DNA of 51,014 bases. It comes from a virus. The stretch spans positions 1 through 51,014 of the IMG/VR virus record IMGVR_UViG_3300023184_000176, one strand, 5' to 3'. The notes under the pieces were generated by a model. The model saw only the letters and a list, made by a program, of their open reading frames with translations, did no database searches and was not told where the DNA came from. Shown here piece after piece: positions 3,290 to 50,837 of this stretch. The position numbers were made by a program, and so were the translations under genes. The stretch's first letter is position 1. Each line of letters opens with the position of its first letter.

Positions 3290-4504
3290 TTAGTCGTTGA
3301 ATACCTCAAACGTTAATGTTCCACTAGAACAGAATTGATTTACTAAATTGGTTGACATTTCTAAATTCACAAAACCATCTCCAGCATCAGAATATGTTCC
3401 TAAATAACTTGTATTTGGTAAAAAGTTTAAGTAAGTTATAAGTTCTGACATATCATTTACGGTACCATTCCCGTAAAGTGATTGAATGTAATTTCCATTA
3501 CAAAACAAAGAAATACTAGGATAATCAATAGGAAATGATGATTCTACAGTTCCACTTATTACAATTGGTGTTGTTCCGGTATCTTGTTTGATTTGAATAT
3601 CAATAGGAAAATAATACAAACTATCACCAACTGATTCAAGTATCTCCGTATCAAAAACCGCAACAACAATCGTTTCATCTTTCTCGGATAAACTTATAGG
3701 ACCTACAAAAGTTTCTAATAGGTTAGGACCAAAATACGGATTTGGATTTGAACCATTTAAAACAAATGTTGTGTTTCTATTAAAAGTATTATACAATGGT
3801 CCTGTGGTCGAATTATATCCAAAATAAACGCCTGACCCAAAAATATCATAATCCCACCCAATATCAAATCCCAAATTGTTTTCTAATACTTTTACCACTA
3901 AATTACCGCTAGATTCTAAAGTAGAACCGTTACTCCAATTTGTTGGGGATTCTCCTGTTGCAATGAATGCACAACCTGTTACGTTAGGATTAACCTCAGT
4001 AACTGTAATTGTTATGTCATTTGCGGGAGTACTACCACTAAGTTCAGTTCCTAATATTGTTATTGTATCTCCTACAACATAATCAACTCCATTAGTGTCA
4101 ATAATAACTGAATTAGTTGTTGTCCCACACCAATAAGCACTAAAAGACGCCCCACTACCAGAACCACTTGTTGTTCCTGTAAGACCATTAAAATACGAAT
4201 AAGGCACCGCTGATGAGGTCCAAACATAATCAATATTAAGAATCTCTGCGCCACTTTGGATATCAGCAATATTACTAAAATCATCATCACTAATATAATC
4301 AGTTATCGTGTAAGTTTCACCTATAATTAAACCATCATTAAAATTAAATAATTCGGTACCGGTCTGAACTCCTAACTGAGTTAATAGTGCTTTGTAAGTT
4401 GCTAAACCACTTGTTGTTCCCGTAACATTTAAATTTCCATTAATTGTTATATCACCCGTTATGGTTTGTCCTGATAAGTTATTTACTATATATTTTGTTG
4501 CCAT
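3290..4504 (-). CDS. Virion or tail-fibre protein
   Basis: 404 residues, rich in Gly, Thr, Ser and Asn and poor in charge, typical of beta-rich phage fibres. The N-terminus (NLSGQTITGDITINGNLNVT) resembles the repeating strand pattern used to attach fibres in many phages. A segment GETYTITDYISDDDF at residues about 62-76 is echoed by the YYIITDF segment of the large repeat protein at 5629-7881, so the two may share a domain. The start is preceded by an A-rich leader. It is first in a line of four consecutive minus-strand virion-like genes. The role, presumably adhesion or a fibre part, is inferred from composition and position. Confidence 0.7.
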   Translation of the reverse strand: MATKYIVNNLSGQTITGDITINGNLNVTGTTSGLATYKALLTQLGVQTGTELFNFNDGLIIGETYTITDYISDDDFSNIADIQSGAEILNIDYVWTSSAVPYSYFNGLTGTTSGSGSGASFSAYWCGTTTNSVIIDTNGVDYVVGDTITILGTELSGSTPANDITITVTEVNPNVTGCAFIATGESPTNWSNGSTLESSGNLVVKVLENNLGFDIGWDYDIFGSGVYFGYNSTTGPLYNTFNRNTTFVLNGSNPNPYFGPNLLETFVGPISLSEKDETIVVAVFDTEILESVGDSLYYFPIDIQIKQDTGTTPIVISGTVESSFPIDYPSISLFCNGNYIQSLYGNGTVNDMSELITYLNFLPNTSYLGTYSDAGDGFVNLEMSTNLVNQFCSSGTLTFEVFND

Positions 4505-4524
4505 TTTTTTATTTTTTAATTTAT

Positions 4525-5601
4525 TTAGTCAATAGGTAATCCCAACTTATAATCAACCGTTATATTACTCCACCCAATACCAAATTCATATTTCATAACT
4601 TTATCAACAACAACGTATGACTCAAATTGTGTTGTACCCGAACTAACATCACTATTAATGAAAATACCACTTAAAAAATATACATCATTTGTGGTGTTTC
4701 CTGTTGTTGCTGCTGGTAAATTTGCGATAATATAATCATAGGCGTCATCTCTAATTATTTGTGTTGCTAAAATCATTTGTTTATTATAGACTTGTTCAGT
4801 AGTACCTGTAAAATTTGATAATGAATATTTGTGTGGCCATAAAATATCAGTTAATTTCCAAAAAGAATAATTACCATTGTCAAATGGTGGATTTTCTATA
4901 TTTGGTGCATTAGTTAATACATTTACAACTTGGTCAATTGCTCCCGCAACGGCACCACAGGTATTATCAGTTAAACTATTTGCTTTACCTCTTCTTAACA
5001 TTCTACCTGAACGTCCATCTTCAGTAATACCAATGTGAGGCATACTTGTCACAAACAAGGTTCCACCAAGAGTTGTTGCCACGTGACTTGAAAACGCTCC
5101 AAACCCAACACTACCAACAAACGGATAACCCGCTAATCCACCTGACATAAATGGCCCTAAAAACGAATTAATACTTGTTGGCCATCCACCGATATTTCCT
5201 GGTAAGTATGCAGCATCCACATCATCAGAACAAATACCTTCAGCTAAAACAATATCAGTTGATGGTATTCCTTCATCTGTAATATATTGTGTTGTGTATG
5301 TTCCCCATACTTCAGATAATACCGCTTCTGAGAATGGTTGTACTCCTCCGTCAACGGTAACAGTTCTTACTGTTTGAGTATATGCACTCTGACCTGTTAA
5401 TGGTGCTGGAACATTTATTTCATACATTCTATCATATAATGGAACGTCTAATTCGTATGTTCCGTAAGGATAATCCGAAATATTATCAAATGGTATTACT
5501 TCAGACCCTAAATCAATGGTTCCACCCGTTGTGGGTAAAAAAGTAACATTTGCCGTAAGCCCTGATAAATTTGTGCTTGTTATTCTAATTCCTTGTATCA
5601 T
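4525..5601 (-). CDS. LCIB-like (theta-type) carbonic anhydrase domain fused to a phage structural N-terminal module
   Basis: 358 residues. Residues 1-68 form a small beta module that resembles the N-terminus of the protein at 13523-14035 (shared pattern ...PF...YGTY...NVP). Residues about 95-345 resemble the limiting-CO2-inducible B (LCIB) family of carbonic anhydrases. Visible elements are GICSDDVD with C124 and D126/D127, then GGLAGYPFVGSVGFGAFSSH at 154-173, SMPHIGI with H189, GRMLRRG with R200 and R203/R204, TCGAVAGA with C215, and a terminal SGIFINSD. C124, H189 and C215 match the Cys-His-Cys zinc ligands expected for that family, and the Asp and Arg of the active site have candidates. 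The enzyme would interconvert CO2 and bicarbonate. Its place among fibre genes suggests a virion-borne enzyme or a domain reused for binding. The family match was made by eye. Confidence 0.75.
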   Translation of the reverse strand: MIQGIRITSTNLSGLTANVTFLPTTGGTIDLGSEVIPFDNISDYPYGTYELDVPLYDRMYEINVPAPLTGQSAYTQTVRTVTVDGGVQPFSEAVLSEVWGTYTTQYITDEGIPSTDIVLAEGICSDDVDAAYLPGNIGGWPTSINSFLGPFMSGGLAGYPFVGSVGFGAFSSHVATTLGGTLFVTSMPHIGITEDGRSGRMLRRGKANSLTDNTCGAVAGAIDQVVNVLTNAPNIENPPFDNGNYSFWKLTDILWPHKYSLSNFTGTTEQVYNKQMILATQIIRDDAYDYIIANLPAATTGNTTNDVYFLSGIFINSDVSSGTTQFESYVVVDKVMKYEFGIGWSNITVDYKLGLPID

Positions 5602-8570: not shown

Positions 8571-10244
8571 TTAACTTTCTTTTCTTAGACTTCCATCATA
8601 AAAATCAAATCTATCGTGTTCTGTCGGAGTTAGTAATAGAACACCCGATTTTAAATTACCTTTAATTGTTTCTTGAAACATATAGCTCATCCATGTTTGT
8701 TCAAATTGATGTCCCCATGTCGTTTCTAAAAACATTTTACGATTTCCGTCTTTTGAAACTATTTGAGGCCAGTTACAATAATAAATCTCACCTGTTGAGT
8801 ATGGTATCCCGTTATGGGTCTTAATCGATTCAAATTTTGTTCTTGGGGCGTTTGGGTCCAAACCTTGAACGGGTAGTTTTTTATTGTTGGGCCAAACAAC
8901 TTCTCTGACTACTTGAGGAACATTGTACCAACTCCATTGAGTGGAATTATCTCCATAAAATTCACTAAAATTTAATTTTAAAAAATCTAAATTCTCTTTG
9001 TTAATTATTGATAAAGATTTTGTATATAAATTATCGACATATCGATTAAAACCATTCCTACAAACTTCATTTTTTTTAGGGTAAAAAAACATATCATCTT
9101 CAAAAAAGAACATATATTCTAAGTCCGTTTTATCAAAATGTTCGGCAATAAATTGTCTCCCACCACAAATCCCTAAATTATCTTTTTTAATATGTTCAAA
9201 ATTATATTCACGACAAAGTTCTAAGTATTTTTCTGTGGTCGATAAATCATTTGAATTGTCTAACAAATATTTTTTAGTTTTATCTAAAAAATTAGAATCG
9301 TATTTTTTCATTGAGAAAATTAGGGTTTCAAATTGTTTTGGACTATTAAACCCAATAACATATAACCCAACTTTACTCATATCCCCAACTTTAATCACCT
9401 TTCCACCCGTTAGTTCATTCTTAAGATTTAAAGTCCCGTTTTTAACATTCTCAAAAAATAACCAAACCAAACCATTACCTTCTATTTCAGAATAATCAAA
9501 CAACATAGGATATTTGTATAACATAATACTAAAGATACTTTCTTCGGTTCCCATATACCCACTTGATAATGTTGTGTTTAATAATTGGTAATATAAATTA
9601 TTAATTTCTGTGATAGTCTCTTTTGGTCCCCCAAAAAATCCTCCTCTTGCAACTTTGTTAACTTTATTTCCTGATAACTCACATAATTTTTTAAACTCAA
9701 ACCCGTGTATTTCTGAGGTTGTTTCGTAAGGAAATGTTATGAATGTGAATTTATTAATTAAGTTAGGTAACTTGTCAATTACTTTATCGTGAGTAAAATA
9801 CCCTGAATTAACAGTATTTGTCAGCCCTGCATCTATCCAAAAAAGGTAATCCGAGTTAAATGAATCGAGTAATTTTGCGTCATGTAACAAGAATACTTTG
9901 GACATAACCAAAGGATTATACATCTCTAACTTTGCTTGTGTTGAATCTTTTAACCAACCTACTTGATTAAACCAATCAGGGTTATTTCTAATCTTTTGAA
10001 TTTTATCGTAAAACTCGTTATTTTTAAACCATGATAAATCTCTATTAATAAATTGTGTGTTTGATTGGTTTCGTCTTTCCCACACAAATTTTTCTAATTC
10101 AGAATCCCCAAAAATAATAAGGTTATTCTCCGTTTTTAATAATTCACTAAATTTAGTTAAATAATGGTTTTCATAAGGTCTTGACCAACCTTCCGTTAGT
10201 TCACCTCTACCTAAATCCCATAAACCTGTTACTAATGTCACCAT
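8571..10244 (-). CDS. Two-domain glycosyltransferase: HtrL/YibB-like N-terminus plus GT-A-like C-terminus
   Basis: 557 residues. The first 280 or so resemble the HtrL/YibB family (TLVTGLWDLGRGE, YLFWIDAGLTN, GGFFGGPKETI, MGTEESIFSIML), a group linked to surface glycan synthesis. From about residue 290 a second domain begins (KVGLYVIGFNSPKQFETLI) with a GT-A-like metal-binding patch, MFFFEDDMFF, and an upstream NLGICGGRQFIAEHF. The arrangement suggests a fused pair of sugar transferases acting on one acceptor. The next gene upstream, another glycosyltransferase, ends 10 bp away, so the group 12687-8571 is probably one operon. The donor sugar and acceptor are unknown. Confidence 0.72.
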   Translation of the reverse strand: MVTLVTGLWDLGRGELTEGWSRPYENHYLTKFSELLKTENNLIIFGDSELEKFVWERRNQSNTQFINRDLSWFKNNEFYDKIQKIRNNPDWFNQVGWLKDSTQAKLEMYNPLVMSKVFLLHDAKLLDSFNSDYLFWIDAGLTNTVNSGYFTHDKVIDKLPNLINKFTFITFPYETTSEIHGFEFKKLCELSGNKVNKVARGGFFGGPKETITEINNLYYQLLNTTLSSGYMGTEESIFSIMLYKYPMLFDYSEIEGNGLVWLFFENVKNGTLNLKNELTGGKVIKVGDMSKVGLYVIGFNSPKQFETLIFSMKKYDSNFLDKTKKYLLDNSNDLSTTEKYLELCREYNFEHIKKDNLGICGGRQFIAEHFDKTDLEYMFFFEDDMFFYPKKNEVCRNGFNRYVDNLYTKSLSIINKENLDFLKLNFSEFYGDNSTQWSWYNVPQVVREVVWPNNKKLPVQGLDPNAPRTKFESIKTHNGIPYSTGEIYYCNWPQIVSKDGNRKMFLETTWGHQFEQTWMSYMFQETIKGNLKSGVLLLTPTEHDRFDFYDGSLRKES

Positions 10245-14038: not shown

Positions 14039-16909
14039 TTAAAATCTATTTTCTACGGCCAAACATACTTCACCGTTTTCGTTAATTAATCTTTTCATAT
14101 CAGAAAAGGAAATAAATGCGTGACCTTGTTGTCCCCAACTTCTTCCCCAACTATTCTTTATTCTAAATAACTGTGTAACTGTGTTAACTCCGTTGATTTC
14201 ATAAGCGTGTCCGCCAGCAATCCCTCCACCAACTCTAATTAAACCATTGCGGTCAGGTCTAAACATATTGTTATACCAATTTGTACCAACCACTACAGGA
14301 CCCACAGTTAATACAGTATTGACCATTACATTAACATCGAATGTCCAAAGGTAGGATGAAATTTTACCTGTTGATTTAAGATATTTTGCCCCACCTCTAA
14401 CTGAAGTTCCATCATAATTTTCTCCTCTCCATTCATCAACTTTTTGAGCCTCACGATAGATTATTTGTGGAGGAACAATTGGTCGTATTTTTGATGTGTG
14501 TAAAGTTGGGCCATCTTCAATCCAATGAGCCCAAGCGTATCCAACACACATTGGTGTTTGTCCTTGGTCTCCCCACCATACATTATCCTGCCAATACTTT
14601 GAAGTGATTCTCGGTGCGGTTAATGGTAATTTATTCTCAATTAAATAATTATGGTCTCTATTGTCAGGAATATGAATCCTACCTAATATTGAGATTGGAA
14701 ATATTGTTGTTGTTGTGGTTGTTGGAATTATCGTTGTGGTTGTTGTCGTTGGGTCTATAATATCATATGTAAAATCGTCCGTTAAACAAACTTCAGTAGA
14801 ACAATCAGGACAATCAGGATTAAACATCCTAAATACATTTTTAAGTAAACTAAAATTATGTTTAACTTCAGGTGCTGATAACGGAGTAACGTACATTCTA
14901 AATTGAGAAATCCCCCCCTCAAATGTTCCTGCAAAATTTTGTTCAATTTGAATGTTCGTTTTTAACCCATTAAAAGTTGTTCCCGTTAAGTCGTTAATTG
15001 GAAAACATTCTGGGTCTTGGATATAAGGGCCATAAGGTAGTGTCATTGATGAAAAGGTTAGATTTTCTCTCAATCCTTGAGTTCCACCACCCCAAGAAAC
15101 ATTAAATGGTACTCCCACTTGTTTTTCTTTATCGGTGTTTAATGCTCTAGGTATTAACTCTTCAAAATCTTCTATAGTATGAAAAATTTTACCATTAATA
15201 TAAAATTTTAACCTTCCTTTTCTATAATGGCCATTAACCAACCACTTTTCATTTAAATTAACAATCTCGATTTCCTCGGCAGGTTTTGACCCTTCGTGAG
15301 TGTATTGTGAGGTAACTAATGACATTGTATTTTGGGCTAATGACTCTAAATAAACTTTTTTAGTAATGTCACCTAACCCCCCTCTATAATTTAAATCACA
15401 GAAGTCTAACCATGTATATCTTTCCCATACGGCATCAAGTTGGAACCAATGTTCTAACTCTAACCACGCTGGATTTATCTTAAAACAATCAGGATAGATT
15501 GGAGGTGTACAATATTCCGTAACGGTAAATCCTGTGAGATATGTTGTTCCTGTTGTTGAACACGAACCCGTTGTTGTACAATCACCTGTGAATCTTAAAA
15601 CCTTAACTCCGATTTGAGGATTTTTAGGGTCCCCACAAAGTTTAAATGATAATGCGTTTGACATACCGTCATATAATGGGTCTTTTTCACAAGTGTCCTC
15701 AATTGACGTATAACCTGTTGTTTCGCAGTCTACACAATCGGTACAAGTAGTACAGTTTGTACATGTTGGAGTACAAACAGGATTTGGTATACAACCGTTA
15801 CTTGTAGGTGTTGGGCTAGGTGTCGGTGTTGGTGTTGGTGTTACTAATGGCGGACAATTGTGAGTTTGACATTCCCACCCACATGTTTCACATCCATAAC
15901 CACCACAATCACATCCACATGTAATTTGTAGATTACGTTCCCCTTTACATAAAGAACATCCGTAATTAATGTGTGGGTCGTGTTTATTGTCTTTAGACCT
16001 TGGTGGGTAGACAAATATACATCTACTATCTGTGACAAGTTTATTACAACACGCACAAGTACTCAAACCTGTTAATGGGGTTGTTACTCTTGTATAACCT
16101 GTAAAACAATCAGGTGTTCCATCGGCATGGTGATAAAATTTATTTTCTGCTCGGGTACCAAAATAAAAGAAAGTATTTTTATTATTTGGGTATAACTCAT
16201 TAAGGGTTGTTTCTCCAAGACCTGGAAAATACTCATTAATTAATCTTGGTTTTAAAATCATTTCAACAGACCATCCCTTATTCATTCTTTCAGGAAAAAT
16301 ATCGTAATCGTATTCAAATAACTTATAAAAACCTTGATAAAAACCACCATACAATTCATGGTACCTTCCTTCAAATGGACTATACTTACTAACAACTTCA
16401 TATAACACAGTATCATTAAATCCTGAAAATCTAATATTAGGATTAGAGGTGTTACCCGTCACTTGAAATAATTTTAATCGTCTATCAAAACTTAATCTAT
16501 CAAATTTTAAAGAACTAGGTAATAACCCATTTGTAAATGTGATTGTTTCACCTGTCATTTGTGTAACTAATCCATTATCTATCCCTGTCAATCCAATATC
16601 ACAAGAGGTTTGTCCTGTAATACAAGTTAAATCTAAATTGTTTGGGTTGTAATAATTTTGTGACACAAAAACATTGTCTCGGTTATAGTTTTTGTACGCC
16701 AAATTTAAATTTGGTACGGTATCACTATTATTGATGTCAAAATAAAAAGGAAGTCTATCTCCATAGGTTTGTGCAATCAAATAGGGTGAGAACACCACTT
16801 CTTGATTGAATCCTGTTTCATCCGATGTTAATGACATATCGTATGAGTCCAAAGAAAGTTTTGGAAACAAATTAGGATACCCGTATTGATTTATATTCTG
16901 ACTCGACAT
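14039..16909 (-). CDS. Large virion protein with Cys-rich centre and C-terminal papain-like (C1A) cysteine protease
   Basis: 956 residues. Residues about 1-270 are beta-rich. A cysteine-dense region at about 285-420 (CACCNK, CGCDCGGYGCETCGWEC, CTNCTTCTDCVDC) surrounds a VTPTPTPTPSPTPT linker and could bind metal. Residues about 430-700 look like a concanavalin-type lectin sandwich (GRLKFYINGKIFHTIEDFEE). After a Thr-rich hinge (TTTTTTIIPTTTTTT), residues 738-956 form a papain-fold protease: Q782 (DQG), nucleophile C788 (PMCVGYAWAHW), H901 (GGHAYEI) and N919 (KNSWGRSWG). All catalytic residues are present. No propeptide is obvious. It may cut host surface or virion proteins. TATTTAT lies on the coding strand at 16920-16926, 10 bp before the ATG. 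Confidence 0.85.
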   Translation of the reverse strand: MSSQNINQYGYPNLFPKLSLDSYDMSLTSDETGFNQEVVFSPYLIAQTYGDRLPFYFDINNSDTVPNLNLAYKNYNRDNVFVSQNYYNPNNLDLTCITGQTSCDIGLTGIDNGLVTQMTGETITFTNGLLPSSLKFDRLSFDRRLKLFQVTGNTSNPNIRFSGFNDTVLYEVVSKYSPFEGRYHELYGGFYQGFYKLFEYDYDIFPERMNKGWSVEMILKPRLINEYFPGLGETTLNELYPNNKNTFFYFGTRAENKFYHHADGTPDCFTGYTRVTTPLTGLSTCACCNKLVTDSRCIFVYPPRSKDNKHDPHINYGCSLCKGERNLQITCGCDCGGYGCETCGWECQTHNCPPLVTPTPTPTPSPTPTSNGCIPNPVCTPTCTNCTTCTDCVDCETTGYTSIEDTCEKDPLYDGMSNALSFKLCGDPKNPQIGVKVLRFTGDCTTTGSCSTTGTTYLTGFTVTEYCTPPIYPDCFKINPAWLELEHWFQLDAVWERYTWLDFCDLNYRGGLGDITKKVYLESLAQNTMSLVTSQYTHEGSKPAEEIEIVNLNEKWLVNGHYRKGRLKFYINGKIFHTIEDFEELIPRALNTDKEKQVGVPFNVSWGGGTQGLRENLTFSSMTLPYGPYIQDPECFPINDLTGTTFNGLKTNIQIEQNFAGTFEGGISQFRMYVTPLSAPEVKHNFSLLKNVFRMFNPDCPDCSTEVCLTDDFTYDIIDPTTTTTTIIPTTTTTTIFPISILGRIHIPDNRDHNYLIENKLPLTAPRITSKYWQDNVWWGDQGQTPMCVGYAWAHWIEDGPTLHTSKIRPIVPPQIIYREAQKVDEWRGENYDGTSVRGGAKYLKSTGKISSYLWTFDVNVMVNTVLTVGPVVVGTNWYNNMFRPDRNGLIRVGGGIAGGHAYEINGVNTVTQLFRIKNSWGRSWGQQGHAFISFSDMKRLINENGEVCLAVENRF

Positions 16910-26567: not shown

Positions 26568-27722
26568 ATGATACCAATTTATAAACCATATCTAAATAAA
26601 GAAAATTTAAAATATGCTCACGAAGCTATTGATTCTACATGGGTTTCATCACAAGGAGAGTATTTAGATTATGTTAAAAACGAACTTAAATCTTTTTTAG
26701 GTTGTAATAAGATTATTTTAACTAATAATGGAACAACCGCAACGCACTTATTGTCATTAGCATTAAAATACAAGTATCCCCACATAACTAAAATTATTGT
26801 ACCAAATAATGTTTATGTTGCCGCATGGAATTCTTTTTTATTTGATAAAAATTATGAGTTAATTCCAATTGACGCTAATTTAGAAAGTTGGAACATAGAT
26901 GTAGAAAAAATAGGGGATAAATTGGATGAGAATACGGCAATTCTAATTGTTCATAATATCGGTAATATAATCAATGTATCAGAACTCAAAAAAAAATTCC
27001 CAAACACAGTTATAATGGAGGATAATTGTGAAGGTTTTTTAGGTAAATATAATGACAAATTTAGCGGTACCGATAGTTTTGTGTCTTCAATATCATTTTT
27101 CGGTAATAAAACTGTTACATCTGGTGAAGGTGGAGCATTCATCACAAATGATGAGGACGTTTTTAATTATATAAATACTGTTAAGAATCAAGGACAGTCA
27201 GACATTAAATTTTTACACGATGTGTTAGGTTATAACTATAGAATGACTAATTTACAAGCATCTATTTTGTACGGTCAAATTATCGATATTAATAAAATAA
27301 TAGAAATGAAATTAAATGTTTTTAAAGAATATAAAAAACATTTAGACCAAATTGAGGGTATTTCGTTTCAAAAACAAGATGAAAATACCTCCCACTCAAA
27401 CTGGATGTTTGGTATTAGATTTTTAAATTTTGACTTAGAAACTAAAAAAAAATTAGAACTATTTTTATTTGAGTCAGGTATTGATACTAGACCAATGTTT
27501 TACTCAATAACAAAACATCAATATCTATCACATATCAAATGTGATACAACAAACGCGGATATATTACAATCTCAGTGTCTAATATTACCTTCCTATCCAG
27601 AATTAACAAAAAGTCAAATAACATTTATATGTAATAAGATAAAACGATTTTTAATTAAATTAAATGAACAAAATAATAAACTTCGCCCCCAACCGGAACT
27701 CAAACAAATAGAGAAAAGATAA
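26568..27722 (+). CDS. DegT/DnrJ/EryC1-type PLP-dependent sugar aminotransferase, C-terminus altered
   Basis: 384 residues. TNNGTTATHLLSLAL binds the PLP phosphate, VIMEDNCEGFLG carries the Asp for the pyridine nitrogen, and FFGNKTVTSGEGG holds the Schiff-base Lys. This matches amino-sugar synthases such as perosamine synthetase, which transfer an amino group from glutamate to a keto-sugar nucleotide. The last 19 residues (after RFLIKL) are read through a 47 bp element that recurs at 28774 in a different frame. The native C-terminus has therefore probably been replaced by this sequence. The catalytic core looks intact. Confidence 0.85.
   Translation: MIPIYKPYLNKENLKYAHEAIDSTWVSSQGEYLDYVKNELKSFLGCNKIILTNNGTTATHLLSLALKYKYPHITKIIVPNNVYVAAWNSFLFDKNYELIPIDANLESWNIDVEKIGDKLDENTAILIVHNIGNIINVSELKKKFPNTVIMEDNCEGFLGKYNDKFSGTDSFVSSISFFGNKTVTSGEGGAFITNDEDVFNYINTVKNQGQSDIKFLHDVLGYNYRMTNLQASILYGQIIDINKIIEMKLNVFKEYKKHLDQIEGISFQKQDENTSHSNWMFGIRFLNFDLETKKKLELFLFESGIDTRPMFYSITKHQYLSHIKCDTTNADILQSQCLILPSYPELTKSQITFICNKIKRFLIKLNEQNNKLRPQPELKQIEKR
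27664..27710 (+). repeat. Element A, first copy (second copy 28774-28819)
   Basis: 47 bp nearly identical to 28774-28819 (two substitutions and one extra G). In the second copy the element is the start of a 29-residue reading frame. The extra G here shifts the frame, and the aminotransferase reads through it instead. It is the left end of the decayed duplication described in the findings. Confidence 0.8.
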
Positions 27723-28867: not shown

Positions 28868-29614
28868 ATGAAGATTGCGTTAGTTTGTATTGCAAAAAAT
28901 GAAGATAGGTATATCCAAGAATGGGTTAATTATCATAAAAAATTAGGGTTTGATAAAATTTTTGTTTACCAAAATGATTGGAGGTGTGACCTTGAAGACC
29001 CTAACATAGTTAAAATAGAGTTTGACGGTGTTAACAAACAAAGAGAAGCTTATAATCATTTTATTAAGACTAAACATGACGAGTATGATTGGGTTGCTTT
29101 TTTTGATGTTGACGAATTTTTAGTACTTAAAAAACACGGGAACGTTAAAGATTTTATTTCCGATTATTCTCAATTTTCATCAATTGGTGTTAATTGGGTT
29201 TTATTTGGTAATAACGGGTATTTTAAAATAGGTCACGAAACAAGTGTCCTAAAAAGATTCACTAAACGCCAGAGTTCGACAAATCCTCACATTAAATCTA
29301 TCGTAAAACTATCTGGTATTGTGACAATGTGTGTTCATAACCCCCCAAATATTTTGACTTGTGACACCAATAACAAAACATTTATCGGACCTTTTAATAA
29401 CTTTGGGGACGATAATATTGCACAATTAAATCATTACTTTTGTAAAACCGAAGAAGAATTTATTGAAAAGTGTAATCGTGGTAGAGCCGACACCCAATTT
29501 ATTGAGGGTCACAAAAGAACAATGACTGATTTTAATAACCATAATTTTAACGAAGTAGAAGACTTAACCGCAATGAATTTTTTATATGATAACAATAATT
29601 TACTCAACACATAA
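28868..29614 (+). CDS. GT92/GT2-like glycosyltransferase
   Basis: 248 residues from the ATG at 28868; an upstream frame extension to 28826 overlaps the 29-residue peptide and is not favoured. MKIALVCIAKNEDRYIQEWV, HKKLGFDKIFVYQNDW, then WVAFFDVDEFLVLKK with the DxD site (DVDEF) identify the family-92 (DUF23) type. A later ending LNHYFCKTEEEFIEKCNRG carries the conserved His. The last 29 bp overlap the start of the next glycosyltransferase gene, so translation may be coupled. Confidence 0.85.
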   Translation: MKIALVCIAKNEDRYIQEWVNYHKKLGFDKIFVYQNDWRCDLEDPNIVKIEFDGVNKQREAYNHFIKTKHDEYDWVAFFDVDEFLVLKKHGNVKDFISDYSQFSSIGVNWVLFGNNGYFKIGHETSVLKRFTKRQSSTNPHIKSIVKLSGIVTMCVHNPPNILTCDTNNKTFIGPFNNFGDDNIAQLNHYFCKTEEEFIEKCNRGRADTQFIEGHKRTMTDFNNHNFNEVEDLTAMNFLYDNNNLLNT

Positions 29615-31094
29615 AGATTCCGAATATAATAACAAATTTAGACAACATTTGTTACAAACAGTTAGTCTTAAAGATGTACAAATATTAGAATATATTAACC
29701 ATAATGAACATTCATTATCGGAACTTTACAATAAAGGTATTTCAGAATCAATATACAATATTGTTGTATGTTGCCATAATGACATTAAGTTAGAGAAAGA
29801 TTGGGGTAAAAAATTATTATTAGATTTTATTTCCAATGACGACTATGGAATTATTGGTAAGGCAGGTTCTTGTTATTTCCCCGAATCAGGTGTGTATTGG
29901 GAAAGGATGGGTCAAACAATGGTTGGTCAGGTATACCATCATCCTGAAGGAAGTAAAAAATGGGTGAATAACTATTCGGCAAAACTACCTCACTTAATAC
30001 CTGTAGTAACAATCGATGGTCTTTTTATATCGTTTGATAAAACTAAGATAAAACATAACTTTGACGAAACAATTGGTAAGTTTCATTTTTATGACCATTC
30101 ATTTTGTTTACCAAATTATTTAGAGGGAGTTAAAATTGGTGTTACATCGTCTTTTGAAATAACTCACCAATCTGTTGGTCAACCAAATCAAGAATTTTTT
30201 GATAGTAAAATTAAATTCTTAGAAAAATGGGGTAATAGATTACCGTTAGATTTAAAACCCGCCAAAGTTTATGTCCCTGATATTAAAGAAAAACCGTTAA
30301 AAAATATTGGTAAAGTTGCGATTGTTATCCCAACAAAAGGAAAAGTTAATCTTTTATTTGATTGTGTATCTTCGTTCTATGAACATTGTAACAAAGACCT
30401 ATTTGATATTTTTATTGCCGATACTGGGTCATCAGACTCTGAAAAAGAGTGGATTAAAAATAAAGTATTACCCTTTGGTAATATTAAATTATTAGAATAC
30501 GATTATTATAATTTTGCTAAGATAAATAATGATGTGGTAAAAAACCATATTACCAAAGATTACGAGTTTGTTTTATTTTGTAATAACGATATTAAAATAT
30601 TAAATAACGTTGTTTATGGGATGTTAAAAATATTTAAAGACAATCCTAGAACAGGTACGGTTGGTTGTAGACTTCACTTTGAAGATAATACAGTACAACA
30701 TGACGGCATTGTCACATTTGTAGATAAAAATCAATCCTTCAAAATTTCCCATTTAAACTTACGATGCTACTACTCATATACCTTACACACTAAAAAACTT
30801 GTTGGTAGTACAGGAGCGTTGTTAATGATTCGAAAATCGGTATTTGAAAAATGTGATTTTTTTAATGAAAACTACGATAGTTGTTTTGAGGATGTTGAGT
30901 TAAATTTAAAATGTATTTTATTAGGTTATAATAATTATTATGACGGTAGTTTGGTCTCTTATCACTATGAAAGTCAAACGAGAATGGAAGACCCTGAGAT
31001 AATAAATAAGATGACTCAGGACTATCAAAAAAATTTACTCCCATTTGTTGTAAAACATTTAGATAAACTGAAGAACTACATTATCTCCGCCTAA
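29586..31094 (+). CDS. Two-part GT2-family glycosyltransferase
   Basis: 502 residues. Residues 1-230 form a domain that starts MITIIYSTHKDSEYNNKF and includes VVCCHNDIKLEKDWG. Residues about 240-500 form a second GT2 domain (KVAIVIPTKGKVNLLFDCVS, FIADTGSSDSEKEW, FVLFCNNDIKI, GSTGALLMIRKSVFEKC, FEDVELNLKCILLGY). The second domain has the usual acidic motif NND and the ED that acts as base. The first resembles a pared-down GT2. A degraded copy of the N-terminus lies at 27783-27983. Confidence 0.85.
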   Translation: MITIIYSTHKDSEYNNKFRQHLLQTVSLKDVQILEYINHNEHSLSELYNKGISESIYNIVVCCHNDIKLEKDWGKKLLLDFISNDDYGIIGKAGSCYFPESGVYWERMGQTMVGQVYHHPEGSKKWVNNYSAKLPHLIPVVTIDGLFISFDKTKIKHNFDETIGKFHFYDHSFCLPNYLEGVKIGVTSSFEITHQSVGQPNQEFFDSKIKFLEKWGNRLPLDLKPAKVYVPDIKEKPLKNIGKVAIVIPTKGKVNLLFDCVSSFYEHCNKDLFDIFIADTGSSDSEKEWIKNKVLPFGNIKLLEYDYYNFAKINNDVVKNHITKDYEFVLFCNNDIKILNNVVYGMLKIFKDNPRTGTVGCRLHFEDNTVQHDGIVTFVDKNQSFKISHLNLRCYYSYTLHTKKLVGSTGALLMIRKSVFEKCDFFNENYDSCFEDVELNLKCILLGYNNYYDGSLVSYHYESQTRMEDPEIINKMTQDYQKNLLPFVVKHLDKLKNYIISA

Positions 31095-44949: not shown

Positions 44950-45540
44950 TTAATCTTCTGGATTTACATCTTTTTTTGCGACTAATGCGACAGTTGTTGT
45001 AGTTGTTGTGGGTGCATTGTCTCCCGCAGGTGTTGCGGCCTTTATTGCCGCAGCTCTACCAGCACTCGATAAATCCATTCCTGTACAAGTTTTAATTGAG
45101 TTGTAAGTGTTATTCCCAAAAATCCCATCCTCTACAAGTTTTTGTGTTATTGTTTTACATTTGTCATTGATTTTAACTTGTACGTCTAAAACTTTTTGTT
45201 TACATCTTGTCGGATTTTTAGTTGACGTACAATCAACTTTTCTATCTGTTACAACAGGTGCGGGAGCAGGTGCGGGAGCAGGTGCGGGAGCAGGTGCGGG
45301 AGCAGGTTCGGTAACAGGTTCGGTAACAGGTTTGGTAACAGGTTCGGTAACAGGTTTGGTAACAGGTTCGGTAACAGGTTCGGTAACAGGTTTCTTCCAC
45401 GCTTGTCTCAATCGACCCAAACGTCCACCTGAAGCAGGTGGAGTATTGGCTTCTTGTTCATTTAACTTATTTTTATACGAAGTATGTAAGTTTAAAATAC
45501 TTTGTCTTTCTGATTCAGAAATTATTATACGTTTGTTCAT
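44950..45540 (-). CDS. Candidate internal virion protein with low-complexity hinge and peptidoglycan-binding-like domain
   Basis: 196 residues. Leader MNKRIIISESERQSILNLHT followed by SYKNKLNE|QE fits L-N-E cleavage. Residues about 52-95 are seven PVT[EK] units then (AP)8. Residues about 100-155 (VDCTSTKNPTRCKQKVLDVQ, then LVEDGIFGNNTYNSIKTC) resemble a PG_binding_1 domain, whose DGIFGxxT motif is visible, with four Cys. The end is Thr- and Ala-rich. It may be packaged and then act at the cell wall during entry. Confidence 0.65.
   Translation of the reverse strand: MNKRIIISESERQSILNLHTSYKNKLNEQEANTPPASGGRLGRLRQAWKKPVTEPVTEPVTKPVTEPVTKPVTEPVTEPAPAPAPAPAPAPAPAPVVTDRKVDCTSTKNPTRCKQKVLDVQVKINDKCKTITQKLVEDGIFGNNTYNSIKTCTGMDLSSAGRAAAIKAATPAGDNAPTTTTTTVALVAKKDVNPED
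45256..45387. repeat. Tandem 12 bp repeats
   Basis: Four units of AGGTGCGGGAGC followed by seven of AGGTTCGGTAAC or AGGTTTGGTAAC (plus-strand reading). They encode the (AP)n and PVT[EK] hinge of the minus-strand gene and are likely to vary in copy number by slippage. Confidence 0.9.
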
Positions 45541-46947: not shown

Positions 46948-48015
46948 TTATTTTATTATTCTTTGAGTTGTCCCGTCACTATAAACGACAATTATTACAC
47001 CTAATGCGTCTGATTCATTAATTTCTTGACCCAATAAGTTAAAATATTTAACTATTGTCTTTGGTTTAGTTCTATTATCTAAACCAATAATATCATATTT
47101 TTTTGATTTACCGTCATAATCGAACTGTATCAATCTATAGTAATTAATCGTATACTCTGTAAATAAATCAACATAACTGTAATCTAACACACTTGTTGAG
47201 TTACCTGACGCATTTACTTTACCCACCTGTGACCAACTTATCCCATCAACACTTCTTTCAATAATATAATGACTTGAGTTAATTTCAGATGCGGTGGACC
47301 ATTGTAATACATTATATTTAGGGTACGATACACCATTAAAATATAACAATTCAATCGGTAGGGGACCGATTACTGTCTCATACAACTGAAAATTATCCAT
47401 CCACCATTCTTCCCCTAAAGCGTTGGACCTTGTAAAGATGTCTATGGCAATATTAGAAGTGTTCGGTGGGATATTTAATCTTATGACAGAATACCCGTCA
47501 CCTGTAGAAGTCCTATCTCCACCCGCAGACGGACCAATTGTTGTTAACACACCATTTGCGGTTTTAGTATAAGTAGCATTTGTGTTATAGTTCCAATACG
47601 CATTATTATTACCTGTAATTTGTAATTCGTTATTATATACTGTACCACCATTAGTACTTAATTGAACGATAATATAGTCACCAACGTCCACACCCCTTGT
47701 AGCGTTAGTTGAGGTAAATCTATACGACGCCAATCTAAATGTGAAATAATAATCGTTATATGGGTCAACAACTAAATTTGGAAACGAATACCAATCTGAC
47801 TCATATCCCGATGTTCCACCACCCAAACCATAAAGTGCCGCACTTGCACTTGGACTAACAGATGCGTTAGTGTAATATCCCGCAGTTGGTGCTGGCGTCC
47901 ACCATATTCCTGACCAATCAAGACTATAAGTCTCAACATAATCGTATTTATATAATGTTTGAGAAACAGATATGTTTGTTAATAAAACTAATAAACTTAA
48001 TAATAGATTTTTCAT
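46948..48015 (-). CDS. Secreted protein with signal peptide and type IX secretion-type C-terminal domain
   Basis: 355 residues from the ATG at 48015; the frame extends to 48045, but only the inner start gives a clean signal peptide, MKNLLLSLLVLLTNISVS, with a mature Gln. Residues about 20-215 form a beta-sandwich (EEWWMDNFQLYE). Residues about 218-310 (LPIELLYFNGVSYPKYNVLQ, WSTASEINSSHYIIERSVDG) match a domain typical of secreted Bacteroidota proteins. The end (KYFNLLGQEI, VYSDGTTQRIIK) matches the T9SS type A sorting domain. It should be exported by the host Sec and type IX systems to the cell surface. It appears host-derived. TATTTAT lies at 48031-48037. Confidence 0.82.
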   Translation of the reverse strand: MKNLLLSLLVLLTNISVSQTLYKYDYVETYSLDWSGIWWTPAPTAGYYTNASVSPSASAALYGLGGGTSGYESDWYSFPNLVVDPYNDYYFTFRLASYRFTSTNATRGVDVGDYIIVQLSTNGGTVYNNELQITGNNNAYWNYNTNATYTKTANGVLTTIGPSAGGDRTSTGDGYSVIRLNIPPNTSNIAIDIFTRSNALGEEWWMDNFQLYETVIGPLPIELLYFNGVSYPKYNVLQWSTASEINSSHYIIERSVDGISWSQVGKVNASGNSTSVLDYSYVDLFTEYTINYYRLIQFDYDGKSKKYDIIGLDNRTKPKTIVKYFNLLGQEINESDALGVIIVVYSDGTTQRIIK

Positions 48016-48124
48016 GATTAATGTTTTATTATAAATATATAACAAAAATTATATATACATCGGATAAGTGAGTTATGATGAATAAACCATACGATTTAAT
48101 TATCATACATAAAAAAACATTTTT

Positions 48125-48811
48125 TTAAATAATTTTATTTGATTTTTTTATATTCTCCTCACCCCACATAGGTTGAAGATTGCCCAATGACCAACATTTC
48201 ATAAACTCCTCATCACCCATCTCAACAATGTTAAAAGACGAGATTGGTTTAATGTGGTCAACGTGCCATTCGCCATAATTTCCCCATATCATATCATCCT
48301 TAAATTGTAATTCTAAATGTTTTATTAGTTCTTCAGGTGTGTATTGTAATACATCAAAGTAATGACCATATTTGTCCACATTACTTTCTTTTAATACGGT
48401 GTAAATTGCAGTCCTGAAATTACTAATTAATTTATAGATGGGGTCAGACGCCTTACGATTTCTTTCGTAATCTCGTTTGATTTGACGAATTTTATCAACA
48501 TTATTTTCTCGGTATTCTTTAATGTATTTACTTAAATGTTCTTTATTTTGTTCTGCCCATTTTTTGTGATTTTCACTTTTTCTTTTTTTTGTTTCGGGTT
48601 TTGATTCATATTTTTTCATAGAAACTTCTCTACCACCAATATTTCTTCTACCTGATGGTCCTATAATAACACCATTTTCTTTTAATATCCTTAAAATTGT
48701 TGGTTTACTAATTCTTGTTTTTTTTGAAATTGTTTGTGACCCCAATAAATCTTCATTATACATTTTAAGTATAATATTTAATTCCGTTTGTGTTGGTATA
48801 ATTTTTTTCAT
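48125..48811 (-). CDS. HNH endonuclease with N-terminal helix-turn-helix
   Basis: 228 residues. Residues 1-45 form a helix-turn-helix (TISKKTRISKPTILRILKEN). A long charged linker follows. The C-terminus carries EWHVDHIKPISSFNIVEMGD and CWSLGNLQPMWGEENIKKSN, the HNH catalytic fold with the DH pair and the late N. Freestanding homing endonucleases of this form are common in T4-like phages. It lies right after the major capsid gene, a frequent insertion neighbourhood. TATTTAT at 48817-48823. Confidence 0.88.
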   Translation of the reverse strand: MKKIIPTQTELNIILKMYNEDLLGSQTISKKTRISKPTILRILKENGVIIGPSGRRNIGGREVSMKKYESKPETKKRKSENHKKWAEQNKEHLSKYIKEYRENNVDKIRQIKRDYERNRKASDPIYKLISNFRTAIYTVLKESNVDKYGHYFDVLQYTPEELIKHLELQFKDDMIWGNYGEWHVDHIKPISSFNIVEMGDEEFMKCWSLGNLQPMWGEENIKKSNKII

Positions 48812-48870: not shown

Positions 48871-48894
48871 AAAGGGACAATTTCTTGTCCCTTT
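48871..48894 (-). terminator. Intrinsic terminator after the major capsid gene
   Basis: A 10 bp stem (AAAGGGACAA with TTGTCCCTTT) around a four-base loop, followed on the minus strand by a run of seven T. It closes the transcript of the capsid gene that ends at 48918. Confidence 0.88.
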
Positions 48895-48917: not shown

Positions 48918-50837
48918 TTATCTCAATTCTCTTAAATCGAATGTACGAACACCATCAACGGTAATTCTTGCATAAAATCTGTTGTTGACCATTTTTTTCG
49001 CGTAACGTGTCATTATACCTTTAATCGGTGTAAAGTTGAACGGATTATACATTGTAGGTGTTAATTGTAATGGTACGTATGGTGCGTAGATGTAACCTGT
49101 GTCTAACAATGATGTTCCTTTGTGTCCAATCAAAACTTGGTTTGGTGGAAAGTAAGGGTCACGGTAAACTTGGTAACGACCAGCTAATGTACCAACTCTT
49201 TCAATACCCATGTTGTATTGGTCTTGTTCAGGAGACGCGTTAGATACGTGGAAGTATTCTAAATCATCAAAAATCGCAGAAACTTCAGAAGAAACAACAA
49301 TCCAGTTAGCTCCACCTCTTAAAGTAGATTTGTGAATTTGTGCTGACAACTGATTAATCGCAGTGATTAATGTTTGGTTCCAGTCTTTTTGAGTGTAGTT
49401 AGTTGTTGCAGAAATTCTTCTCCAACCGTTGTAATCCCAACGTAAGTTCCATGCCGCACCTTTACGTAAATCTCTAAGGATTTCACGGTCGATTTCAGCC
49501 GCAACTTGTTCAGATAATAAAGCCGTTAATTCAGCTTCAGCATCGATGTTGTGGAAAGCCGCAACGTCTTGAGCTAACTCAGGAGACCATTGTGCTCTTA
49601 ATTTTCTTTCAGAAACAGAAACTGTAACAGAATCCAATTCGAAAGAAACTTCTCCGATTTTGTCTTCAAATTCCATTTCTTTGTAACGTCTGAATACCGT
49701 ACTGAATATATCTTCTGCAACAACACCAAGAGTAGTTCCTGTGTAACCATCTAAAGTATCAGAACCACAAGTTGCACATGCTGGACATGATAAATCAACT
49801 TCTAAATAGATACAACCATTTGGTGAACAGATGTTATTGAATCGACCATTATTACCTTCACTTGGCCATGGTGCTTGTAGCGTACTGTTTAATCCTGACA
49901 CAATTCCTTGACCGTATTGTTGAGTAACAACTCTGAACAATAATGATTTACGGTTATGAGCAGAATCAAAAACATTTTGACATTGTGTTGATGCAGTACT
50001 TGCAGACCATGCCGCTGAATTCCAAGCAGTGTTAGAATAAATTCTTAAATCTGATAAGAAAGTTTCAGAATCATATTCGTTACCATCAGGTCCGATTAAT
50101 TTTCCTGAACCTGTATCAGCAAATCCACACATAGAAACAATTACTTTTCTAACGTTTTGACCGTCAAGTATTGTTGGGTCAGCCGCCTCAGATAAAGGAA
50201 TTAAACCACCATTTTCCCAAACTTGGATAGTTGCTACAGTAGTAACTGCTGACCATTGTCCTTTAGAGTAATCGAATAAACCTGGAGGGTCTAATTGTCC
50301 TTCATTTCCTTCGTAGAATAAATCGTAAAGATTTTTCTTGTAAGTAGGGTTATAAGTACCAGTACCTGAGTTGTAACCTAAACCTTCTTGTGCTTCGTCC
50401 ACAGTTAAACCACCAGCCGCTCCAACTGGACCGTAATGGTTACCTGATTTACCATCGTAAGGTGGAGTGTTATCTGGTAGTTGAGCAGTTCCATCAGCAT
50501 ACCCTTGAATTTTAGGTACGAAGTAGAACAATTTACCGATTGGTAAGTTCATAGCTTGTACAGAAACGATATCATTCGCTAATAATTTAGAGAATACACG
50601 TCTAACGATAGGGAAAACAACAGTTTCAAATGAACCTGATGAACCTTCTGAAGTAGCTTCGTTTATTAAGTGAGACGCTTGATTCTCATATAACTGAGCT
50701 ACGTTCTCTTTTAGGTGACCTTTAAGGCCTTCTAGGAATCCTAATTTATCCCATTTGTTAATTGTATCTTCTTTGATAACTTTAAGGTGTTTTAACCCGA
50801 TATTACCAACAAGACCTGATTCTAATAATGCTCCCAT
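48918..50837 (-). CDS. 23: Major capsid protein, T4 gp23-like
   Basis: 639 residues. The first 60 form an acidic helical propeptide (NKWDKLGFLEGLKGHLKENV) ending SHLINE|ATSEG, which fits the I-x-E cleavage site of T4-type prohead protease. From residue 70 the HK97-fold core follows in gp23 form (VFPIVRRVFSKLLANDIVSV, QAMNLPIGKLFYFVPKIQGY, then EEMEFEDKIGEVSFELDSVT-like composition and SERKLRAQWSPELAQDVAAF). The C-terminus has PNQVLIGHKGTSLLDTGYIY and APYVPLQLTPTMYNPFNFTP, both typical. It assembles the capsid shell. The insert at about 110-330 is larger than in T4 and includes CPACATCGS. Confidence 0.93.
   Translation of the reverse strand: MGALLESGLVGNIGLKHLKVIKEDTINKWDKLGFLEGLKGHLKENVAQLYENQASHLINEATSEGSSGSFETVVFPIVRRVFSKLLANDIVSVQAMNLPIGKLFYFVPKIQGYADGTAQLPDNTPPYDGKSGNHYGPVGAAGGLTVDEAQEGLGYNSGTGTYNPTYKKNLYDLFYEGNEGQLDPPGLFDYSKGQWSAVTTVATIQVWENGGLIPLSEAADPTILDGQNVRKVIVSMCGFADTGSGKLIGPDGNEYDSETFLSDLRIYSNTAWNSAAWSASTASTQCQNVFDSAHNRKSLLFRVVTQQYGQGIVSGLNSTLQAPWPSEGNNGRFNNICSPNGCIYLEVDLSCPACATCGSDTLDGYTGTTLGVVAEDIFSTVFRRYKEMEFEDKIGEVSFELDSVTVSVSERKLRAQWSPELAQDVAAFHNIDAEAELTALLSEQVAAEIDREILRDLRKGAAWNLRWDYNGWRRISATTNYTQKDWNQTLITAINQLSAQIHKSTLRGGANWIVVSSEVSAIFDDLEYFHVSNASPEQDQYNMGIERVGTLAGRYQVYRDPYFPPNQVLIGHKGTSLLDTGYIYAPYVPLQLTPTMYNPFNFTPIKGIMTRYAKKMVNNRFYARITVDGVRTFDLRELR

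Follow-up and report, generated by a model that had tools for sequence, protein, structure and literature searches.

The window analyzed here, meaning the whole 51,014-base virus record, belongs to a phage whose capsid is of the T4 type. The gene under study lies downstream of the capsid gene, and the features of the locus are the following, all on the minus strand.

48918-50837, minus strand: gene for the major capsid protein gp23, the conserved upstream neighbor (PF07068, 1.7e-73; synteny in 18 contigs)
48871-48894, minus strand: terminator-like hairpin 3' of gp23
48125-48811, minus strand: endonuclease VII-like gene separating gp23 from the gene under study (phrog_1035, 2.9e-16)
48030-48039, minus strand: TATATTTATA motif just 5' of the start codon, a possible but weak phage promoter element
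46948-48015, minus strand: coding sequence under study, 355 amino acids, stop included (ATG at 48015, stop at 46948-46950)
47962-48015, minus strand: Sec signal peptide, residues 1-18, assigned by eye, with likely cleavage before Q19
47368-47961, minus strand: predicted N-terminal jelly-roll domain, MAM/CBM/cleaved-adhesin-like, residues 19-216 (~198 amino acids; AlphaFold2, Foldseek)
47071-47367, minus strand: FN3-like domain with the pattern LPxEL..WxTASE..IERSxDG, residues 217-315 (alignment; pLDDT mostly 85-95)
46951-47070, minus strand: short C-terminal tail, residues 316-355 (profile A3, host occurrences, predicted strands)

The open reading frame picked out in an earlier note on this DNA, with its signal-peptide-like start, LPxEL-type domain and KYFNLLGQEI end, was confirmed, and its strand, which had been left unstated, is the minus strand. 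The LPIELLYF..WSTASE..IERSVDG and terminal KYFNLLGQEI...YSDGTTQRIIK segments are both present. The protein begins with MKNLLLSLLVLLTNISVS followed by Q and reaches a hydrophobicity of 2.41 over 11 residues; by inspection and hydrophobicity it thus carries the N-terminal Sec signal peptide expected of cargo of the type IX secretion system (T9SS), and a hydrophobic start ending in ..SQ is conserved among its relatives. We propose that the 40-residue tail is a condensed T9SS sorting signal. The TATATTTATA motif was also considered as a phage promoter and set aside: its positions are suggestive, but its three copies in the window are close to the 1.27 expected by chance.

Relatives of the window protein at ~37-99% identity are encoded on about 49 IMG/VR contigs, some of which are near-identical, this being the combined yield of a first set of 13 contigs, an alignment scan (22) and a scan with the N-terminal domain (47). 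The order of signal peptide, jelly roll, LPxEL domain and C-terminal tail is kept in all complete members, including those that the short-tail profile misses (L020, L023-L026, L126, L128, L129), which have variant ends or, for L026, a full-length C-terminal domain (CTD). Differences within close pairs are mainly synonymous (dN 0.006 and dS 0.026 for the window and L002; dN 0.05 and dS 0.23 for L009 and L010). The recurrence of the protein in 49 contigs, its constant architecture and this excess of synonymous differences indicate that the reading frame is more than a product of chance. A PDB sequence search with the window protein returned no match, and neither did a comparison of its N-terminal domain with phage GenBank records, among which huge phages matched the LPxEL-plus-tail part only. 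Three phage records of 630-640 kb (L015, L016 and L017; LR756502, LR756504 and LR745206) encode LPxEL-domain proteins together with separate matches to PF18962.

The earlier note had read the end of the protein as a T9SS type A sorting domain, which in the strict sense does not hold. The Pfam and NCBIfam models of T9SS sorting domains gave no match to the window protein even at an E-value limit of 10, and none to its 11 alignment mates; neither the type A models TIGR04183 and PF18962 (above their cut-offs) nor the type B models TIGR04131 and PF13585 recognized it, and the window protein can therefore not be classed as carrying a type A CTD. Whereas type A models span some 75 residues, the tail has about 40, roughly half the domain, lacks the NP motif and forms three predicted strands in the AlphaFold2 model (321-325, 340-345 and 350-354) rather than the seven of an Ig-like CTD. 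What it shares with type A CTDs is its C-terminal position, the accompanying signal peptide and upstream LPxEL domain, and similar LLGQEV and final strand segments. Two relatives have the same two upstream domains followed by a canonical type A CTD: L018, which sits among bacterial genes on a contig of a Crocinitomicaceae MAG (PF18962, 2.8e-11; TIGR04183, 1e-11), and L026, which is on a viral contig (PF18962, 3.9e-10). Aligned directly by hhalign, tail and canonical CTD show a weak similarity (probability 11-14%, P 0.003-0.004), which 1 in 200 column shuffles equaled in either mode. We infer that the tail may be a condensed type A CTD in which the LLGQEV strand has been retained together with the terminal hairpin, a reading consistent with the report that GFP can be exported with no more than the final 22 residues of the HBP35 CTD (PMC10202324). 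The known species-specificity of CTDs (PMC11285876) was counted against an explanation of the window protein by T9SS export. Of the two things whose joint absence was to have told against that explanation, matches to type A models are indeed missing, but homologs among secreted-type proteins of Bacteroidota do exist.

Host occurrences of the tail were found with a profile built from alignment A3. Within the order to which the Crocinitomicaceae MAG belongs, the tail was found in 85 of 150 genomes (E<=0.01; best 1.3e-16), and at all 20 of the best loci it ends 0-5 residues from the stop codon of secreted-type proteins that differ in their bodies and in many cases have visible signal peptides. 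A C-terminal tag common to secreted-type proteins of the host group, as would be expected of T9SS cargo, is thus present. Ten such short-tail host proteins drew no match from the T9SS models. Two short-tail proteins resemble extracellular PHA depolymerases (NF050058, 5.4e-32 and 3.5e-40, below the cut-off of the model); in the family to which they belong, 25 of 30 loci have the short tail, with scores from strong to marginal, a canonical CTD closes two others (L107 and L109), and the remaining three have neither. As far as the sequences tell, short tail and canonical CTD are interchanged in this family. The T9SS translocon SprA is encoded in 147 of the 150 genomes, which makes sprA uninformative as a test of the tail within the order. 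Across the phylum, the reference MAG was the sole match among 198 genomes at a threshold of 1e-5, and 14 matches appeared at 0.01, mostly to the first half of the profile. Among five of these weak loci that were read, L153 and L156 have short tails, and L154, L155 and L157 matched within longer, CTD-like ends of the form NP..LGxEx..GxYxY..KKM, which gave no significant score against a canonical-CTD profile from four genomes. Since most sprA-positive genomes of the phylum are without the tail, the tail is limited to a lineage, and a genome without it may or may not have a T9SS.

The tail is concentrated in the order of the Crocinitomicaceae MAG, and the assignment of the phage to a Bacteroidota host, made in the earlier note, looks right and can be narrowed accordingly. 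Flavobacterium and Rhodothermus phages are among the nearest cultured relatives of gp23, but so is a Microcystis phage, and gp23 alone cannot settle the host. The host proteins with the short tail bear on the alternative that the tail is simply the structural end of the LPxEL domain, the exported protein staying in the periplasm or leaving the cell by another route. While the lack of matches to curated T9SS models and the weak profile similarity of the tail to CTDs would suit this explanation, host proteins devoid of an LPxEL domain (the PHA-depolymerase-like L031 and L041, as well as L046 and L047) have the tail at their ends too, and tail and canonical CTDs are exchanged, which makes this explanation unlikely.

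The location of the family gene among phage genes is a recurrent one, as would be expected of a phage-encoded T9SS cargo. It follows gp23 in 18 contigs (L002, L003, L004, L006, L007, L009, L010, L014, L127, L137-L140 and L142-L146), with an endonuclease gene intervening in some of them; the endonuclease VII-like gene, possibly a mobile endonuclease, lies beside gp23 in L002, L003 and L009, and none was found at this place in L004, L007 and L010. Elsewhere, the family gene is found between the head-tail adaptor and tail sheath genes (L023; L025 looks similar), between genes for a virion structural protein and an endolysin (L012), or adjoining the gene for a type B (CHU_C) protein with a signal peptide (L020, L022). 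In Flavobacterium phage immuto, the nearest cultured gp23 relative, the annotations show no counterpart after gp23, where reading frames labeled hypothetical and 'tail fiber' lie. Matches to PF18962 occur in 7 of 20 virus records, three of ~640 kb among them, and there is none in the window.

Such positions could also suggest a virion decoration protein, that is, a head or tail component akin to Hoc which bears lectin-like domains and is built into the particle, its hydrophobic start not serving secretion in practice. In its favor, phage particles often contain jelly-roll and FN3 domains, FN3-type tail proteins are among the viral fold matches of the window protein, and the gene comes immediately behind gp23 in 18 contigs and sits between adaptor and sheath genes in L023. 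Against it stand the signal peptide at the start of all complete members, the sharing of the tail with host secreted-type proteins that are no phage parts, and the variable position of the gene, beside an endolysin in one phage and type B cargo in two; we regard a decoration protein as quite unlikely.

Other genes of these phages deserve mention. In L021, a 125-residue Por_Secre_tail protein (3605-3982) that consists of little beyond a signal peptide and a type A sorting domain (PF18962, 2.5e-6) neighbors a subtilase (4002-5513; PF00082, 8.7e-31). In the viral contig L147 (1-6766), the family member is immediately preceded by an open reading frame of 1284 residues with a canonical-type CTD end and followed by three more with signal-peptide-like starts, which makes a cluster of cargo-like genes. 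The window itself encodes a DegT/DnrJ aminotransferase (PF01041, 8.6e-63), a glycosyltransferase (PF13712, PF00535) and an HtrL_YibB-like protein, its sugar-modification genes being located at 26568-27722 (plus strand), 29586-31094 (plus strand) and 8571-10244 (minus strand); the phage may synthesize or modify a glycan, as would suit a theme of surface remodeling. Also on the minus strand are a 956-residue reading frame with a papain-like C1 peptidase match near its C-terminus (14039-16909; PF00112, 3.2e-5) and one with VTEPVTKP-type and AP tandem repeats (44950-45540), whose L003 counterpart is shorter (168 versus 196 residues).

The AlphaFold2 model of the full-length window protein has a pLDDT of 75.6, the FN3-like domain and the tail reaching mostly 85-95; modeled alone, the N-terminal domain yields a pTM of 0.82 and a mean pLDDT of 79.8. 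Foldseek matched this domain to PDB structures (E 1e-4 to 1e-3, with query TM values of 0.4-0.55 in most cases) that include reelin repeats, CBM61, CBM16, MAM domains and, from Lys-gingipain, the cleaved adhesin domains K1 and K3. The predicted domain resembles binding modules; with regard to the roles put forward in the earlier note, which are superinfection exclusion, adhesion or polymer breakdown, this favors binding over catalysis. The best viral structural match, A0A6J5PHN9, is an uncharacterized protein of an uncultured phage with 44% identity over the full length, and the list of viral matches includes an entry named 'Secretion system C-terminal sorting domain [uncultured Caudovirales phage]'. 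A secreted enzyme whose jelly-roll domain would cleave a host glycan or glycoprotein might be read from a PNGaseA match (E=0.011) and from the alignment of the full-length model with accessory domains of glycosidases; the former was rejected, being below the cut-off of its model, and at the domain level CBM61, CBM16, MAM and gingipain adhesin domains match, all of them modules with a binding or accessory rather than a catalytic role, so that an enzyme seems very unlikely. That the gene is a bacterial one on misassigned or chimeric contigs, as its domains typical of Bacteroidota secreted proteins and the relative on a bacterial chromosome contig (L018) might suggest, was rejected as next to inconceivable in view of the repeated synteny with gp23 in 18 contigs and with other phage genes elsewhere.

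Collectively, we consider it likely that this phage gene, which is probably a late one, encodes an adhesin-like protein exported by the infected cell through the host T9SS. The relatives with canonical CTDs, the tag on host proteins, the signal peptide and the phage context all argue for it, as do the presence of SprA in the order, the nearby type A and type B cargo-like genes and the binding-module fold. The idea of a phage gene for a T9SS cargo put forward in the earlier note is in this respect well supported, if indirectly, leaving aside its strict type A label. Because both ends of the protein resemble labels for type IX secretion, the infected cell probably displays a viral protein. Production of the adhesin-like protein would, to judge by gene position, fall near the time of capsid gene expression. 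The signal peptide would direct the protein through Sec to the periplasm, where, as the comparisons suggest, the host type IX system would read the short tail and deliver it to the cell surface or medium. There, judging from the predicted fold, the jelly-roll and FN3-like domains would bind, most likely to a surface glycan. The function that we favor, tentatively, is a masking of receptors or glycans that would limit re-adsorption and second infections, so that neither debris nor infected cells would trap new virions and second phages would be excluded; cell aggregation and polymer capture are alternatives.

More broadly, there is perhaps an even chance that the tail is a compact, so far unrecognized T9SS signal concentrated in one Bacteroidota order, which many phages of these bacteria keep on a late adhesin that reshapes the surface of the infected cell while virions are assembled. 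The short tail is unmodeled in both Pfam and NCBIfam and is not described in the open-access literature searched, although subscription papers may already have it; as far as we found, what is new is this tail and a conserved adhesin-like family spread across different phage genome arrangements. Should the tag work, curated models would understate the diversity of type IX sorting signals, and the secretomes of the order would be under-counted, given that ten short-tail host proteins escaped every T9SS model. Phage-encoded T9SS cargo would gain a conserved family present in differing genome arrangements, and uncultured phages a host marker.

With respect to known systems, the T5 Llp protein is a small receptor-blocking lipoprotein that blocks FhuA; the likeness to the window protein is one of proposed role only, that of a phage-made envelope protein preventing re-adsorption, and we claim no similarity in sequence or export. 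The K1 and K3 cleaved adhesin domains of Lys-gingipain (PDB 4itc, 3m1h) share the predicted jelly-roll fold of the window N-terminal domain at 10-14% identity, the window protein having no protease part, and gingipains are themselves T9SS cargo (PMC4804311, PMC5562754). Closest in kind are the type A cargo proteins already reported from Cryophages (Bellas et al. 2020, PMC7468147), which likewise are phage products with T9SS sorting signals thought to exploit the host system. Whereas the Cryophage cargo consists of variable endoglucanase, GH39 and PA14 proteins with recognized type A domains, the family described here is conserved and adhesin-like, ends in a short unmodeled tail and is often encoded beside gp23.
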